This document shows, in pieces, positions 49,039 to 53,580 of a DNA stretch of 64,000 nt. Numbering within the stretch: position 1 is the stretch's first letter; each line of letters begins with the position of its first letter. The stretch spans positions 21,970 through 85,969 of the forward strand of contig JAIEFR010000002.1 of assembly GCA_029066845.1 (NCBI GenBank), given 5' to 3'. A program made the position numbers and the translations under genes. The notes below the pieces were generated by a model. That model was not told the DNA's origin. It saw nothing but the letters and a program-made list of their open reading frames with translations, and did not search any database. This DNA comes from Clostridia bacterium (GTDB lineage: Bacteria > Bacillota > Clostridia > Christensenellales > Borkfalkiaceae).

Positions 49039-50910
49039 ATGAAGATTAAAAAGGCTTTGCCCGTACTCGTTTCGCTGGTTATGGCGGGCGGTGTGCTTGC
49101 GGGCTGCGCACACACTCACACCTATTCGGATGAATGGACTAAGGCGGAGGACGGAAGCGGTCACTACCACGTTGCTACCTGCCATCCCGACGAGCACGAC
49201 GCGGTTAAAGACCACGTTTACGACAACGATGCGGACACCACTTGCAACGACTGCGGCTACGTGCGCACGGTTGAGCAGGAAACACCTACGCCGACGCCCA
49301 CCCCGACTCCTACCCCGACACCCACACCCACGCCAGAGGAGCAAATTACATATTCTCCGTTACCTGCAGACAAGAAAATTTACGTGGTCGGCGATTCTAC
49401 GGTGTGCTCGTTTACCGATGTAATGTATTTGCCTCGCTACGGCTACGGCACGCAATTGCACGAATATTTAAACGTGCAGGAAAGCCAGGTTAAAAACCTT
49501 GCACTTTCCGGAAGAAGCTCCAAGAGCTTTACATATAACTTGACTGTAGACAAAAGTAATAAAAACTCAGTTTCCGGTGATTTGTCTTGCTATGAATATT
49601 TGACGACAAATATTGCTGCGGGCGACTATCTCATTATCGGCTTCGGTCATAACGATGAAAAGAGCGACGATTCCGCGCGTTATACAACTGCTAAGGAAAC
49701 GGATACGTACACTACCGCGGGCTCTTTCCAGAAAACGCTTTACGACAATTATGTGAAAATGGCAAAGGATAAGGGAGCAACGCCTATTCTCTGTACGCCT
49801 ATTACCAGATACGACGCAAGCGGCGCATACACGGGTTCTAAGGTTCACGTAACGGCGGATGGTGACTATGCTAAAGCAATCAAAACTTTGGGCGATGCAA
49901 CCGAAACTACGGTAATTGATTTAACGGCTTTGACGGTTGCCGAGTATAAAAAGGACAATGCAGCGGCGCAGTACTATCACTCGCACGGTTCCTACGAGGG
50001 CGACCCTGTTACTGGTGACGTTACCGGTAACGAAACTCCTACGGGTAGGGACGATACGCACATTAACGAGTACGGCGCAAAAATGGTTGCTTATCAGTTT
50101 GCAAACGCACTGAAAACGACCAGCTGTACTTTGAGGTCGCACGTCAAGGAAAATATTTCTGCTCCTACGAAAGAGGTTGATTATATTGCGGCGGTTAAGC
50201 ACGCTAATTTTGTAAAGAAACCTTATAAGCCTTTTAACCCCGCAGACGCGTCTAGCAAATGGACGATTTCCGCAGAAGGCTGGTACGGCACCGTTATGGG
50301 CGAACACGGTGGCAACAGCATCGACAGTAATTACAGGGTGGAAGAGGCGGACGGTAAGTTCACCGTAGGTACGAGCGCAAAGAAGGGCAAGTTCTCAAGT
50401 AGCGCCGATGGTTTTGCTGCCGCGTTTATGCAAGTAGCAAAAGATAAAAACTTCAAGATTTCTGCTACGGCTAAGCTTACTACTGTAACGGCATCTGGCG
50501 ACAACCCCAATCAAGCGGCGTTTGGACTTATGTTGCGCGACGATATTTACAACAACGTAGCCGCTCAGGACAAATCTCTTAACAGCAATTACGTTGCCGC
50601 AGGCGTTTTTGGCGACGGCAAAAACGCAATTTTCAGCCGTAAAGATACAGTTTTAAGCACCAACGCCCGTACGGCTACTGTTTCGACAACGGCAAATTAT
50701 ACTATGTCTATCGAAAAGATAAATCAGTCTGTCACGGTTACTTTCTCGGACGGAACTAACAGCTATACCGTTAGTGATGAATTCCTTGACTTTAACTTCT
50801 GTGCGGTAGACAGCGATTATATGTATATCTGCCTGTTTGCAACGAGAGGTATAACGGCTGAATTTACCAATGTTACGTTCGAAGATAAGGGGACGAATGA
50901 AGGTGCGTAA
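49039..50910 (+). CDS. SGNH-type esterase lipoprotein with C-terminal carbohydrate-binding-like domain
   Basis: 623-aa surface protein: lipobox LAGC; a His/Cys-rich segment (30-75, CHPDEHD and CNDCGY); a Thr-Pro linker of about nine TP units; then an SGNH hydrolase with block I GDST (S120 nucleophile), block III FGHNDEK and block V DDTH (D338/H341), as in rhamnogalacturonan acetylesterases. Residues about 400-623 form a beta-rich region with GEHGGNSIDSNYRVE, LMLRDDIY and CLFATRGITAEFTNV like a laminin-G or carbohydrate-binding module. Probably deacetylates plant or host glycans at the surface. The DNA is more A/T-rich than its neighbours. Confidence 0.85.
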   Translation: MKIKKALPVLVSLVMAGGVLAGCAHTHTYSDEWTKAEDGSGHYHVATCHPDEHDAVKDHVYDNDADTTCNDCGYVRTVEQETPTPTPTPTPTPTPTPTPEEQITYSPLPADKKIYVVGDSTVCSFTDVMYLPRYGYGTQLHEYLNVQESQVKNLALSGRSSKSFTYNLTVDKSNKNSVSGDLSCYEYLTTNIAAGDYLIIGFGHNDEKSDDSARYTTAKETDTYTTAGSFQKTLYDNYVKMAKDKGATPILCTPITRYDASGAYTGSKVHVTADGDYAKAIKTLGDATETTVIDLTALTVAEYKKDNAAAQYYHSHGSYEGDPVTGDVTGNETPTGRDDTHINEYGAKMVAYQFANALKTTSCTLRSHVKENISAPTKEVDYIAAVKHANFVKKPYKPFNPADASSKWTISAEGWYGTVMGEHGGNSIDSNYRVEEADGKFTVGTSAKKGKFSSSADGFAAAFMQVAKDKNFKISATAKLTTVTASGDNPNQAAFGLMLRDDIYNNVAAQDKSLNSNYVAAGVFGDGKNAIFSRKDTVLSTNARTATVSTTANYTMSIEKINQSVTVTFSDGTNSYTVSDEFLDFNFCAVDSDYMYICLFATRGITAEFTNVTFEDKGTNEGA

Positions 50911-50934
50911 TAGTTAAATTACAATTAAAACTAC

Positions 50935-50965
50935 AAAGCGGCGGCGGAAATGCCGCCGCTTTTTC
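50935..50965 (+). terminator. Rho-independent terminator after the SGNH gene
   Basis: AAAGCGGCGGC pairs with GCCGCCGCTTT, loop GGAAAT, followed by TT. Confidence 0.85.
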
Positions 50966-51061
50966 GTGCAAAAAAACGGGCGTGAAAAATGTGATTGTTG
51001 ATAACTTTTATGTAAATTGCAAACAAAATGTATCGCCAAATAAAAAAATTGTCGAAATTAC

Positions 51062-51101
51062 TTGACACGCAGGGGGGGGGGTGTTAACATTTACGTGTCA
51101 A
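51062..51101 (+). promoter_or_regulatory. Promoter with G10 spacer inside an inverted repeat
   Basis: TTGACA (51062-51067) and TAACAT (51085-51090) with a 17-bp spacer containing ten consecutive G (51072-51081). TTGACACG (51062-51069) is the exact inverted repeat of CGTGTCAA (51094-51101), so the -35 forms one arm and the likely start site the other. A homopolymer in the spacer is the known design of phase-variable promoters: gain or loss of one G changes spacing. Confidence 0.6.
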
Positions 51102-51162
51102 TATTAATATGTTGAAATGTTGGCAATTTAAATTGAAAATTTTTTTGGAGGGTACATAAATT

Positions 51163-52926
51163 ATGAAGGCAAAGAAGATTGTTGCCGTTGTTATGGGCGC
51201 TGCGCTTGCAGGAACTCTGGCAATCGGTATGAGCGCGTGCAGCGGCGGTAAAAAGCCCGAAAACTTAAAAGAGGGCACTTTAAACATCGCAAACTACGCG
51301 AAAGAGTATGACAGCGACGGCTTCACTACTCAGTATAGCGAAAAAGGCTTTACGGGTCTTGAAAAAGTTTTGTCTATGGGTCAGGAAGACGCCGTTGACC
51401 AGCTGATCGAGGGCTATTTAGTCGTTGAAGACGGCACGGATAAGTATGCCGTTCTGGACTTATATGCAAACAAGAAAATTATCAGCGGACTTACTGGCGT
51501 TCCTCAGAACTATTCTATTGGTTATCTCAACGTGATTATGGTAGTTTATGAGGGCACGGACGAGGATCAGGTTGAAATTTATACCTACGACGGCACCAAG
51601 ATTCTTGAAAAAGCTACTTATACTCAGCAGCCTCAAATTACCAGTTCGCAGCTTTTCGTCGGCAACGATACCACAAGGTCTACGGTTTATAAGATTGAAA
51701 CCGCAAAGCTTGTAAACGACGAGGAAGAGGACGTTGAAGTATACGTAAAGGCAACCGCGGACGAGAAAACCCAGGTCTTTACATATACCGTTGTTAAAGA
51801 GTCGGATTTAAAGACCTACGCTCCCGAATACGCAGTAGGCAGCGACAAGAGCGGTCTTAAAAACCCCGTATACATCACAAGCAAGGCCAAGCCCGTAGAA
51901 GGCGAAATCAAGGATTACGAATACAGCTATATAGGCAATAAGTATACCTTCTATAAAAACGGCGCCGAAACCGGCAGCGTTGACCTTACTAACGGCGAAG
52001 TTTTGGCGGTTATGGGCAACAGCTTATATTATACCGTAAGCATTCCCGTAAGCCCCGAAGCAACCAAGGGTTACAATCTGGCGGCAATCGGCAGCAAGGT
52101 TGATTACAGCCTCTATAAGTACGATATCATCGAAAATACTACGACCGAGCTTAACTATGACGTTGTTGTAATGAATATGAAAACACTTTACAATTACGAA
52201 ACCAAGGCTTACGACGCTGCGCTGATTTCAGGTATAAAGATTTCGGACGACGGCGTTGCTTACGGCGCAGACGAGTTTACGTACGTTATCAATAACAATT
52301 TCGAGCTCTGCTACGACGTAACCGGTATGATAAGCGAAGTTCGCAGCATCGCCAGCATCGGCAATGATAAGTATCTGATTGATGATTCGGTAATCGTTGA
52401 TTCCAACCTTAACGTTTTAAGCGAAACCGACTACTACGACAATGTTTATACCAACGAAGGGCTTGTCGGCTTTGAAGCGAGCAGCAGAATCGGTTTTAAA
52501 GATTTAAACGGCAAAGTTGTTATCGCTCCCGAATATACCGGCGTATCCGGCACCCCTATATTCTACGGCGGCGTTGCATACGTGAGAAACAAGGACGGCG
52601 AGCTTGTATTCCTTAAAAAGGACGGCACCGAAACGAAAATTTCCGACCTTGAAGAGAGCTCCGACGATAAAGTCGTAAAGACCGTACAGGTTAACTTTAA
52701 CGGCACTTATTCCATAACCACCGTTACTACTCCCGATCAGGGCGATGTTACGAGAACCCGTGCTTACTATTCGTATAACGGCACGCTTCTGAAGAGCTTT
52801 GACCTTACCAAGAGTTCGGTAAGCGGACCTATGCTTAAGAACGGCAGCTACTATATCATCGAAACTACCGTAAGCGGCACCGGTACCGATATTACTTATA
52901 CCTCGACTTTATACAAGCTGGTTTAA
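51163..52926 (+). CDS. Large lipoprotein, unknown function, with WG-repeat-like segment
   Basis: 587-aa secreted protein with signal peptide and lipobox MSAC (SGGK follows). Beta-rich throughout, with repeated segments of the form KYAVLDLYANKKIISGL and IGFKDLNGKVVIAPEYTG, the latter like a single WG/KWG beta repeat; the rest suggests a propeller-like or sensor fold. No enzyme motif. GGAGGG precedes the ATG. It stands alone between two terminators, behind the promoter with a G10 spacer, so it may be expressed by only part of the population. Confidence 0.65.
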   Translation: MKAKKIVAVVMGAALAGTLAIGMSACSGGKKPENLKEGTLNIANYAKEYDSDGFTTQYSEKGFTGLEKVLSMGQEDAVDQLIEGYLVVEDGTDKYAVLDLYANKKIISGLTGVPQNYSIGYLNVIMVVYEGTDEDQVEIYTYDGTKILEKATYTQQPQITSSQLFVGNDTTRSTVYKIETAKLVNDEEEDVEVYVKATADEKTQVFTYTVVKESDLKTYAPEYAVGSDKSGLKNPVYITSKAKPVEGEIKDYEYSYIGNKYTFYKNGAETGSVDLTNGEVLAVMGNSLYYTVSIPVSPEATKGYNLAAIGSKVDYSLYKYDIIENTTTELNYDVVVMNMKTLYNYETKAYDAALISGIKISDDGVAYGADEFTYVINNNFELCYDVTGMISEVRSIASIGNDKYLIDDSVIVDSNLNVLSETDYYDNVYTNEGLVGFEASSRIGFKDLNGKVVIAPEYTGVSGTPIFYGGVAYVRNKDGELVFLKKDGTETKISDLEESSDDKVVKTVQVNFNGTYSITTVTTPDQGDVTRTRAYYSYNGTLLKSFDLTKSSVSGPMLKNGSYYIIETTVSGTGTDITYTSTLYKLV

Positions 52927-52959
52927 TAGTATTGCGTATAATATTATAAGGTAAAAGGA

Positions 52960-52993
52960 AGCCCGCGCGTTTTCAAAACGCGCGGGCTTTTTT
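52960..52993 (+). terminator. Strong terminator after the large lipoprotein
   Basis: AGCCCGCGCGTTTT pairs with AAAACGCGCGGGCT around one base, followed by a T-run. Confidence 0.95.
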
Positions 52994-53034
52994 TGCACCC
53001 TGTGGCAAGATTGTAAAAAACAGGTAAAATTTCG

Positions 53035-53063
53035 TTGACATTTGCGTTCGGGTTTGATAAAAT
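53035..53063 (+). promoter_or_regulatory. Promoter of the str operon
   Basis: TTGACA (53035-53040) and TAAAAT (53058-53063), spacer 17 bp. Leader to rpsL is about 135 bases, with TTTGCA/TGCAAA and GTGTT/AACAC hairpins. Confidence 0.85.
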
Positions 53064-53094
53064 GTCATTCGCTCACTGTTTAAGGTGGGTCTTT

Positions 53095-53187
53095 ATGTGT
53101 TGCGAAAACACGCTTTCTCCTTTGCATTTTAAGGGTAGGTGCAAAGCAAGAATATATTCCACAGGCGCGCTAAACCGCGTCGAGTAA
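53095..53187 (+). CDS. Possible upstream ORF in the rpsL leader (30 aa)
   Basis: ATG at 53095 preceded by AAGGTGG (53082-53088); 30 codons ending TAA at 53187, just before the rpsL AAGGAGG. The product begins MCCENTLSPLHFKGRCK and has three cysteines. It might be a leader peptide controlling the operon, or chance within a structured RNA. No family match. Confidence 0.25.
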   Translation: MCCENTLSPLHFKGRCKARIYSTGALNRVE

Positions 53188-53205
53188 AACAAGGAGGAAC
53201 AAGTA

Positions 53206-53580
53206 ATGCCCACAATCAACCAGCTTATCAAGCACGGCAGAGAAAAGCAGGTTTTCAAGAGCAAGTCGCCCATTTTGGACAACTGCCCCCAGAAGCGCGG
53301 CGTATGCCTTTCGGTTACGACCACCACGCCCAAGAAGCCTAACTCTGCAATCCGTAAGATCGCAAGGGTAAGACTTACCAACAAGCAGGAAGGTACTGTC
53401 TATATCCCCGGTGAAGGTCACAACCTTCAGGAGCACTCTTCCGTTCTCATCAGAGGCGGACGTGTAAAGGATCTGCCCGGCGTACGTTACCACATCGTGC
53501 GCGGCGCACTCGATACCGCAGGCGTTTCCAAGAGGAAGCAGGCGCGTTCCCGCTACGGCGCAAAGAAACCTAAGAATTAA
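53206..53580 (+). CDS. rpsL: Ribosomal protein uS12
   Basis: 124-aa decoding-centre protein starting [14 protein letters not shown], with the [14 protein letters not shown] loop and ending KKPKN. The positions where streptomycin-resistance changes arise (Lys in TTPKKPNS and in [11 protein letters not shown]) are wild-type. AAGGAGG precedes the ATG. First gene of the str operon. Confidence 0.98.

Follow-up and report, generated by a model that had tools for sequence, protein, structure and literature searches.

A run of ten guanines (G10) lies between the -35 and -10 elements of a lipoprotein promoter in the window, the whole 64,000-nucleotide stretch of Clostridia DNA that was analysed. It is probably a slippage-prone spacer within a housekeeping-type promoter that switches a surface lipoprotein gene, and one of an order-wide set. 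During replication, the tract would gain or lose one G, which would shift the distance between the -35 and -10 elements among 16, 17, and 18 bp. Transcription of the lipoprotein gene would then go up or down reversibly with spacer length, and the assembled G10 allele, with its 17-bp spacer, would represent the high-expression state. The window tract belongs to a set of spacer poly-G tracts found mostly before lipoprotein genes in an order of uncultured Clostridia. From the sequence we infer both the slippage at the window tract and its effect on transcription.

The Promoter and Its Gene

The sequence-only reading of this locus had placed TTGACA, a 17-bp spacer with ten G, and TAACAT in front of a 587-aa lipoprotein gene, and direct reading confirmed this arrangement to the base. 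The -35 element TTGACA occupies 51062..51067 on the forward strand and was also found by promoter scan. It is followed by the 17-bp spacer CGCA-G10-TGT, in which the G10 tract, the proposed slippage site, spans 51072..51081 (forward strand; direct reading, shuffles, and recurrent architecture). The -10 element TAACAT (51085..51090, forward strand; direct reading and promoter scan) matches the consensus at 4 of 6 positions and has a TGn ahead of it at 51082-51084. This extended -10 could make a one-base change in the spacer less consequential and lower the dependence on spacing. Judging from the -10 position, transcription would start near 51097. In a scan of 50800-53250, the G-tract promoter scores 10/12 and ranks second behind an 11/12 promoter at 53035, and the window as a whole contains 5 occurrences of TTGACA with TANNNT at 16–18 bp compared to 0.95 expected. 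As at opc and porA, a homopolymer sits between the -35 and -10 elements of an otherwise good promoter.

The lipoprotein gene (51163..52926, forward strand) is preceded by the ribosome-binding site GGAGGG, read directly at 51147..51152 on the same strand. Its product has a lipobox (AIGMSAC) with Cys26, and this lipobox and signal peptide suggest a surface location. A terminator-like hairpin (~50938..50962, forward strand; direct reading and scan) at the end of the upstream SGNH-hydrolase lipoprotein gene separates the two genes, and therefore the 587-aa lipoprotein gene needs its own promoter. In Pfam, the protein has only a weak, sub-threshold WG-repeat match; no family was found for it in NCBIfam and no relative in the PDB, and it lacks a paralogue in its own genome. 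Among 60 relatives, one homologue (38%) was found, in genome G005, where the gene lies directly after recG and has neither G tract nor promoter. The SGNH-hydrolase gene, which occupies 49039-50910 of the window with recG on one side and the G-tract lipoprotein gene on the other, is missing at that place in G005. Structure prediction of the 587-aa protein from the resulting two-row alignment gave a pLDDT of 39.

The G10 tract is an outlier in its surroundings. Runs of at least 5 G or C in the window comprise 51 of length 5, one of length 6, none of lengths 7–9, and one of length 10, which makes G10 the sole such run longer than 6 and agrees with the earlier remark that no second locus of this type occurs in the window. 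Dinucleotide shuffles give 0.10 runs of at least 10 expected per window. In the 1.56-Mb genome, runs of at least 9 G are confined to contig-end junk, one family of giant proteins, and the window promoter, and the spacer G-tract pattern described below has one match.

An inverted repeat had been read as surrounding the tract. Its left arm, TTGACACG (51062..51069), and right arm, CGTGTCAA (51094..51101), which spans the predicted start site near 51097, were identified by arm comparison, carry no strand assignment, are complementary at 8 of 8 positions with 24 nt between them, and form a repeat that is unique within the genome. An 8-bp inverted repeat anywhere in this intergenic stretch is unremarkable, with 0.62 expected, but 0 of 2000 shuffles gave a repeat with its second arm matching the -35 element within 45 nt. 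The repeat as described is real. It is no shared trait of G-tract promoters, being found at only 2 of 63 others, and a role for it as a component of the recurrent mechanism was ruled out on that count. We regard it rather as a local operator candidate or as chance.

Recurrence Across the Order

The pattern TTGA-N2..11-G8-N0..9-TANNNT has 677 matches, distributed over 120 of the order's 396 genomes, compared to 26 for the reversed pattern, both counts being raised by overlapping choices of the -10 element. Some members of the order contain 10–29 matches per genome. A stricter pattern, applied to a sample of the class, was found in 4 of 19 genomes inside the order and in 2 of ~372 outside it; it requires TATAAT and so misses the window promoter itself. 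A scan of viral contigs for the promoter, whatever the length of its tract, gave no match.

The genes behind 40 of these promoters are strongly biased. Lipoproteins make up 32 of 39, a further 3 carry a signal or membrane segment, and the remaining 4 are apparently cytosolic, in a set that contains some paralogues. Behind ordinary TTGACA/TATAAT promoters, 40 of which were taken from two genomes, the corresponding figure is 4 of 33 (Fisher p=3e-9). The lipoprotein call in both sets is a crude rule of lipobox plus hydrophobicity, with a few borderline cases in each. The window gene fits this bias. An exception to the lipoprotein rule is seen in two genomes, where related cytosolic proteins lie behind G-tract promoters (L151, G081:C1; L166, G141:C18) and have in common the late motif YYDxLxRLIRxTKxKDETIAKL.

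Spacer and Tract Length

Of 148 ordinary promoters in the window genome (G000) and in G404, 121 have a 17-bp spacer. Among G-tract promoters with exact hexamers, only 1 of 37 does (p=5e-20 versus ordinary promoters), the spacers being spread over 15–19 bp, and the figure is 3 of 52 when each type of G-tract promoter is counted once. A population of slipping spacers would be expected to show such a spread, to which an optimum that differs on G-rich DNA could also contribute. The window allele, in which G10 and a fixed part of 7 add up to 17 bp, is among the few G-tract promoters at this length. Since 17 bp is the norm of the genome's ordinary promoters, the G10 allele is predicted to be ON, and the same prediction, made earlier from the locus itself, is in line with this norm.

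Tract lengths peak sharply at G9 (65 of 107). In general, a length taken from a short-read assembly can be off by one, a caveat on the switch proposal. The tract directly adjoins the -10 element in 42 of 88 promoters, and its position within the spacer otherwise varies. Closely related copies within a genome differ in some cases and agree in others. In G131, the near-identical flanks of a duplicated lipoprotein promoter enclose tracts of G11 and G12, and G127 has three paralogous lipoprotein promoters in which tracts of G8, G9, and G10 go with spacers of 17, 19, and 20 bp, respectively. In G123 three paralogues all have G9, and the tract is G8 in each of eight paralogous G421 promoters. Some tracts therefore look stable, and in G421 either G8 is stable or the copies are recent. 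The longest tract seen, TTGACA-G23-TACAAT (L230, G421:C15:9569-9603), lies beside these eight sister promoters.

Tracts also come and go: homologues of the G127 lipoprotein fetched from 19 other species have no upstream G tract, and the G005 homologue at the window locus agrees with this.

Giant Proteins With Coding G Tracts

The window genome encodes, outside the window, ~20 giant surface proteins of 1500–1950 codons, which have a G8–G12 tract at codons 9–11. They are found on contigs C7, C8, C9, C11, C12, C14, C15, C17-C22, and C24 (L081-L095, L044). The proteins start with MKMFKMTT-GGG-QALL.., and the tract is an uninterrupted G run wherever it is readable. All 19 members with a readable downstream frame have that frame intact over 1484–1941 codons. 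Of the 11 tracts that can be read confidently, 3 leave the gene in frame (C7, C17, C20) and 8 put it out of frame. The latter copies have not decayed, given that every downstream frame is intact. The proteins have conserved ends and a long hypervariable middle, and one member contains bacterial Ig-like domains (Big_3). Three further genomes of uncultured Clostridia (JAIDIR, CAMWWA, CAMWHW) contain related genes with G9–G11 tracts; the 587-aa lipoprotein was not found in them. We infer that the family undergoes phase variation of the frame-shift type, a sign that poly-G tracts are in use in the window species.

In the assembly, many contigs end at genes of this family. At two contig ends (G000:C9:237648-237733 and G000:C12:1-93), poly-G or poly-C fills the sequence in place of the tract expected for the family. 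These ends look like a dark-cycle sequencing artefact and are unusable as tract alleles.

The window promoter resembles those of the giant family in a further element. The 9-mer TTGTCGAAA (51049..51057, forward strand) lies 4 bp 5′ of the -35 element, at a spacing identical to that in the giant-family promoters, and it matches the consensus of the Spo0A box, with core TGTCGAA. Spo0A is encoded in the genome (Spo0A_C protein on C20). The pattern TTGWCGAAA-N4-TTGAMA has 12 matches in the genome and its reversed control has 0, in a comparison whose significance is post hoc, the pattern having been built once the similarity had been noticed. These matches comprise 9 giant-family promoters, several of them at contig ends, 2 copies in front of hairpins, and the window promoter. 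As a single 9-mer, TTGTCGAAA is by itself weak evidence of membership in a putative Spo0A regulon. The element was found at 1 of 57 other G-tract promoters of the order, and was thus ruled out as a general trait of these promoters. The 2 hairpin-front copies (L100, G000:C10:61-79; L104, G000:C15:130706-130724) are giant-family promoters with the box that precede hairpin-like sequences of ~100 nt, in which there is no obvious ORF and no Rfam match above threshold.

Alternative Explanations

Three other explanations of the G10 tract can be weighed against a slipping spacer. One is that the poly-G serves as a fixed element, regulatory or structural, acting either as a protein site or as stiff DNA by which promoter strength or the response to supercoiling is tuned; it would be kept in lipoprotein promoters and would not switch. 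The peak at G9, the uniform paralogues of G421 and G123, and the frequent contact of the tract with the -10 element are all in its favor. For a fixed site, however, the varied position of the tract and the spacing of 15–19 bp, compared to 17 bp in ordinary promoters, would be odd, and both the duplicated promoters that differ by one G and the G tracts that break reading frames in the same genome speak against it. We consider this explanation unlikely.

Less plausible still is a neutral homopolymer that arose by chance in an ordinary constitutive promoter. The tract is indeed the sole promoter-spacer tract of its genome, and the single homologue lacks it, but such a run is rarely expected in the shuffles, the remaining G runs of at least 9 in the genome are confined to one gene family or to contig-end junk, and the recurrence over the order and the lipoprotein bias also speak against chance. 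A sequencing or assembly artefact of the dark-cycle poly-G type, as suggested by the appearance of the ends of C9 and C12, is the most improbable of the three, given that the tract is internal and exactly within a promoter spacer, in an arrangement that recurs in more than 100 other genomes. The locus lies ~13 kb from the nearer contig end, with continuous flanks.

The reading of the tract as a switching promoter spacer is favored by the order-wide recurrence, the lipoprotein bias, the spread of spacers, the G11/G12 duplicates, and the frame-switching giant family of the same genome. Two parts of the original proposal are weaker, namely the inverted repeat and, given the extended -10, the effect of a one-base spacer change. 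The G005 homologue with neither tract nor promoter, the uniform G8 in G421, and the -10 element with its 4 of 6 consensus positions count against the switch. So does the presence of MutS and MutS2 in the genome, which rules out loss of mismatch repair as the cause of slippage. A wider proposal, to which we give an even chance, is that the order has a lipoprotein phasome based mainly on spacer poly-G, in which a genome can hold as many as 29 pattern matches. The fixed portion of each spacer would put the usual G9 off the 17-bp optimum, such that most cells express at a low level and few at a high level. To this, the window species would add its ~20 frame-switching giants, which share the Spo0A-box-like element with the window gene.

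Relation to Known Systems and Implications

To our knowledge, transcriptional switching by poly-G or poly-C is known mainly from Gram-negative mucosal pathogens. In Neisseria meningitidis, porA undergoes phase variation through a poly-G tract in its promoter spacer. For opc of the same species, a published account describes a poly-C promoter tract whose length tunes transcription (PMC6389960). The window locus is like opc and porA in that the homopolymer lies between the -35 and -10 elements of a surface-protein gene. Unlike these loci of a Gram-negative pathogen, it belongs to an order of Clostridia in which relatives have many such promoters per genome, mostly before lipoproteins, in a system whose switching is predicted from sequence.

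In Bifidobacterium breve UCC2003, an intragenic G tract acts as a pilus switch (PMC9187656). This system, too, places poly-G at surface structures and works by slippage in a Gram-positive gut commensal. However, its tract is inside the coding sequence and acts by frameshift, and it resembles the giant family and not the promoter switch. The poly-G tracts of Campylobacter and Helicobacter are likewise found mainly in coding sequence. Genomes of these genera hold numerous poly-G tracts at contingency loci in surface-associated genes (PMC6321876, PMC2823697). In the order studied here, by contrast, the tracts recur in promoter spacers, and the window genome encodes MutS.

Mechanistically, the proposal follows opc and porA; what appears to be new within the searchable literature is its setting, its scale, and its focus on lipoproteins. 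No prior report of an order-wide spacer poly-G system was found in the literature searched, a scope that leaves subscription papers and preprints outside and makes this weak evidence of novelty. If the proposed switch is real, slippage-based surface variation would be a strategy of ordinary anaerobes too, and the presence of a gene would not be sufficient to infer lipoprotein expression in these organisms. The G-tract promoters provide a ready list of candidate switch sites, which can be read directly in metagenomes.
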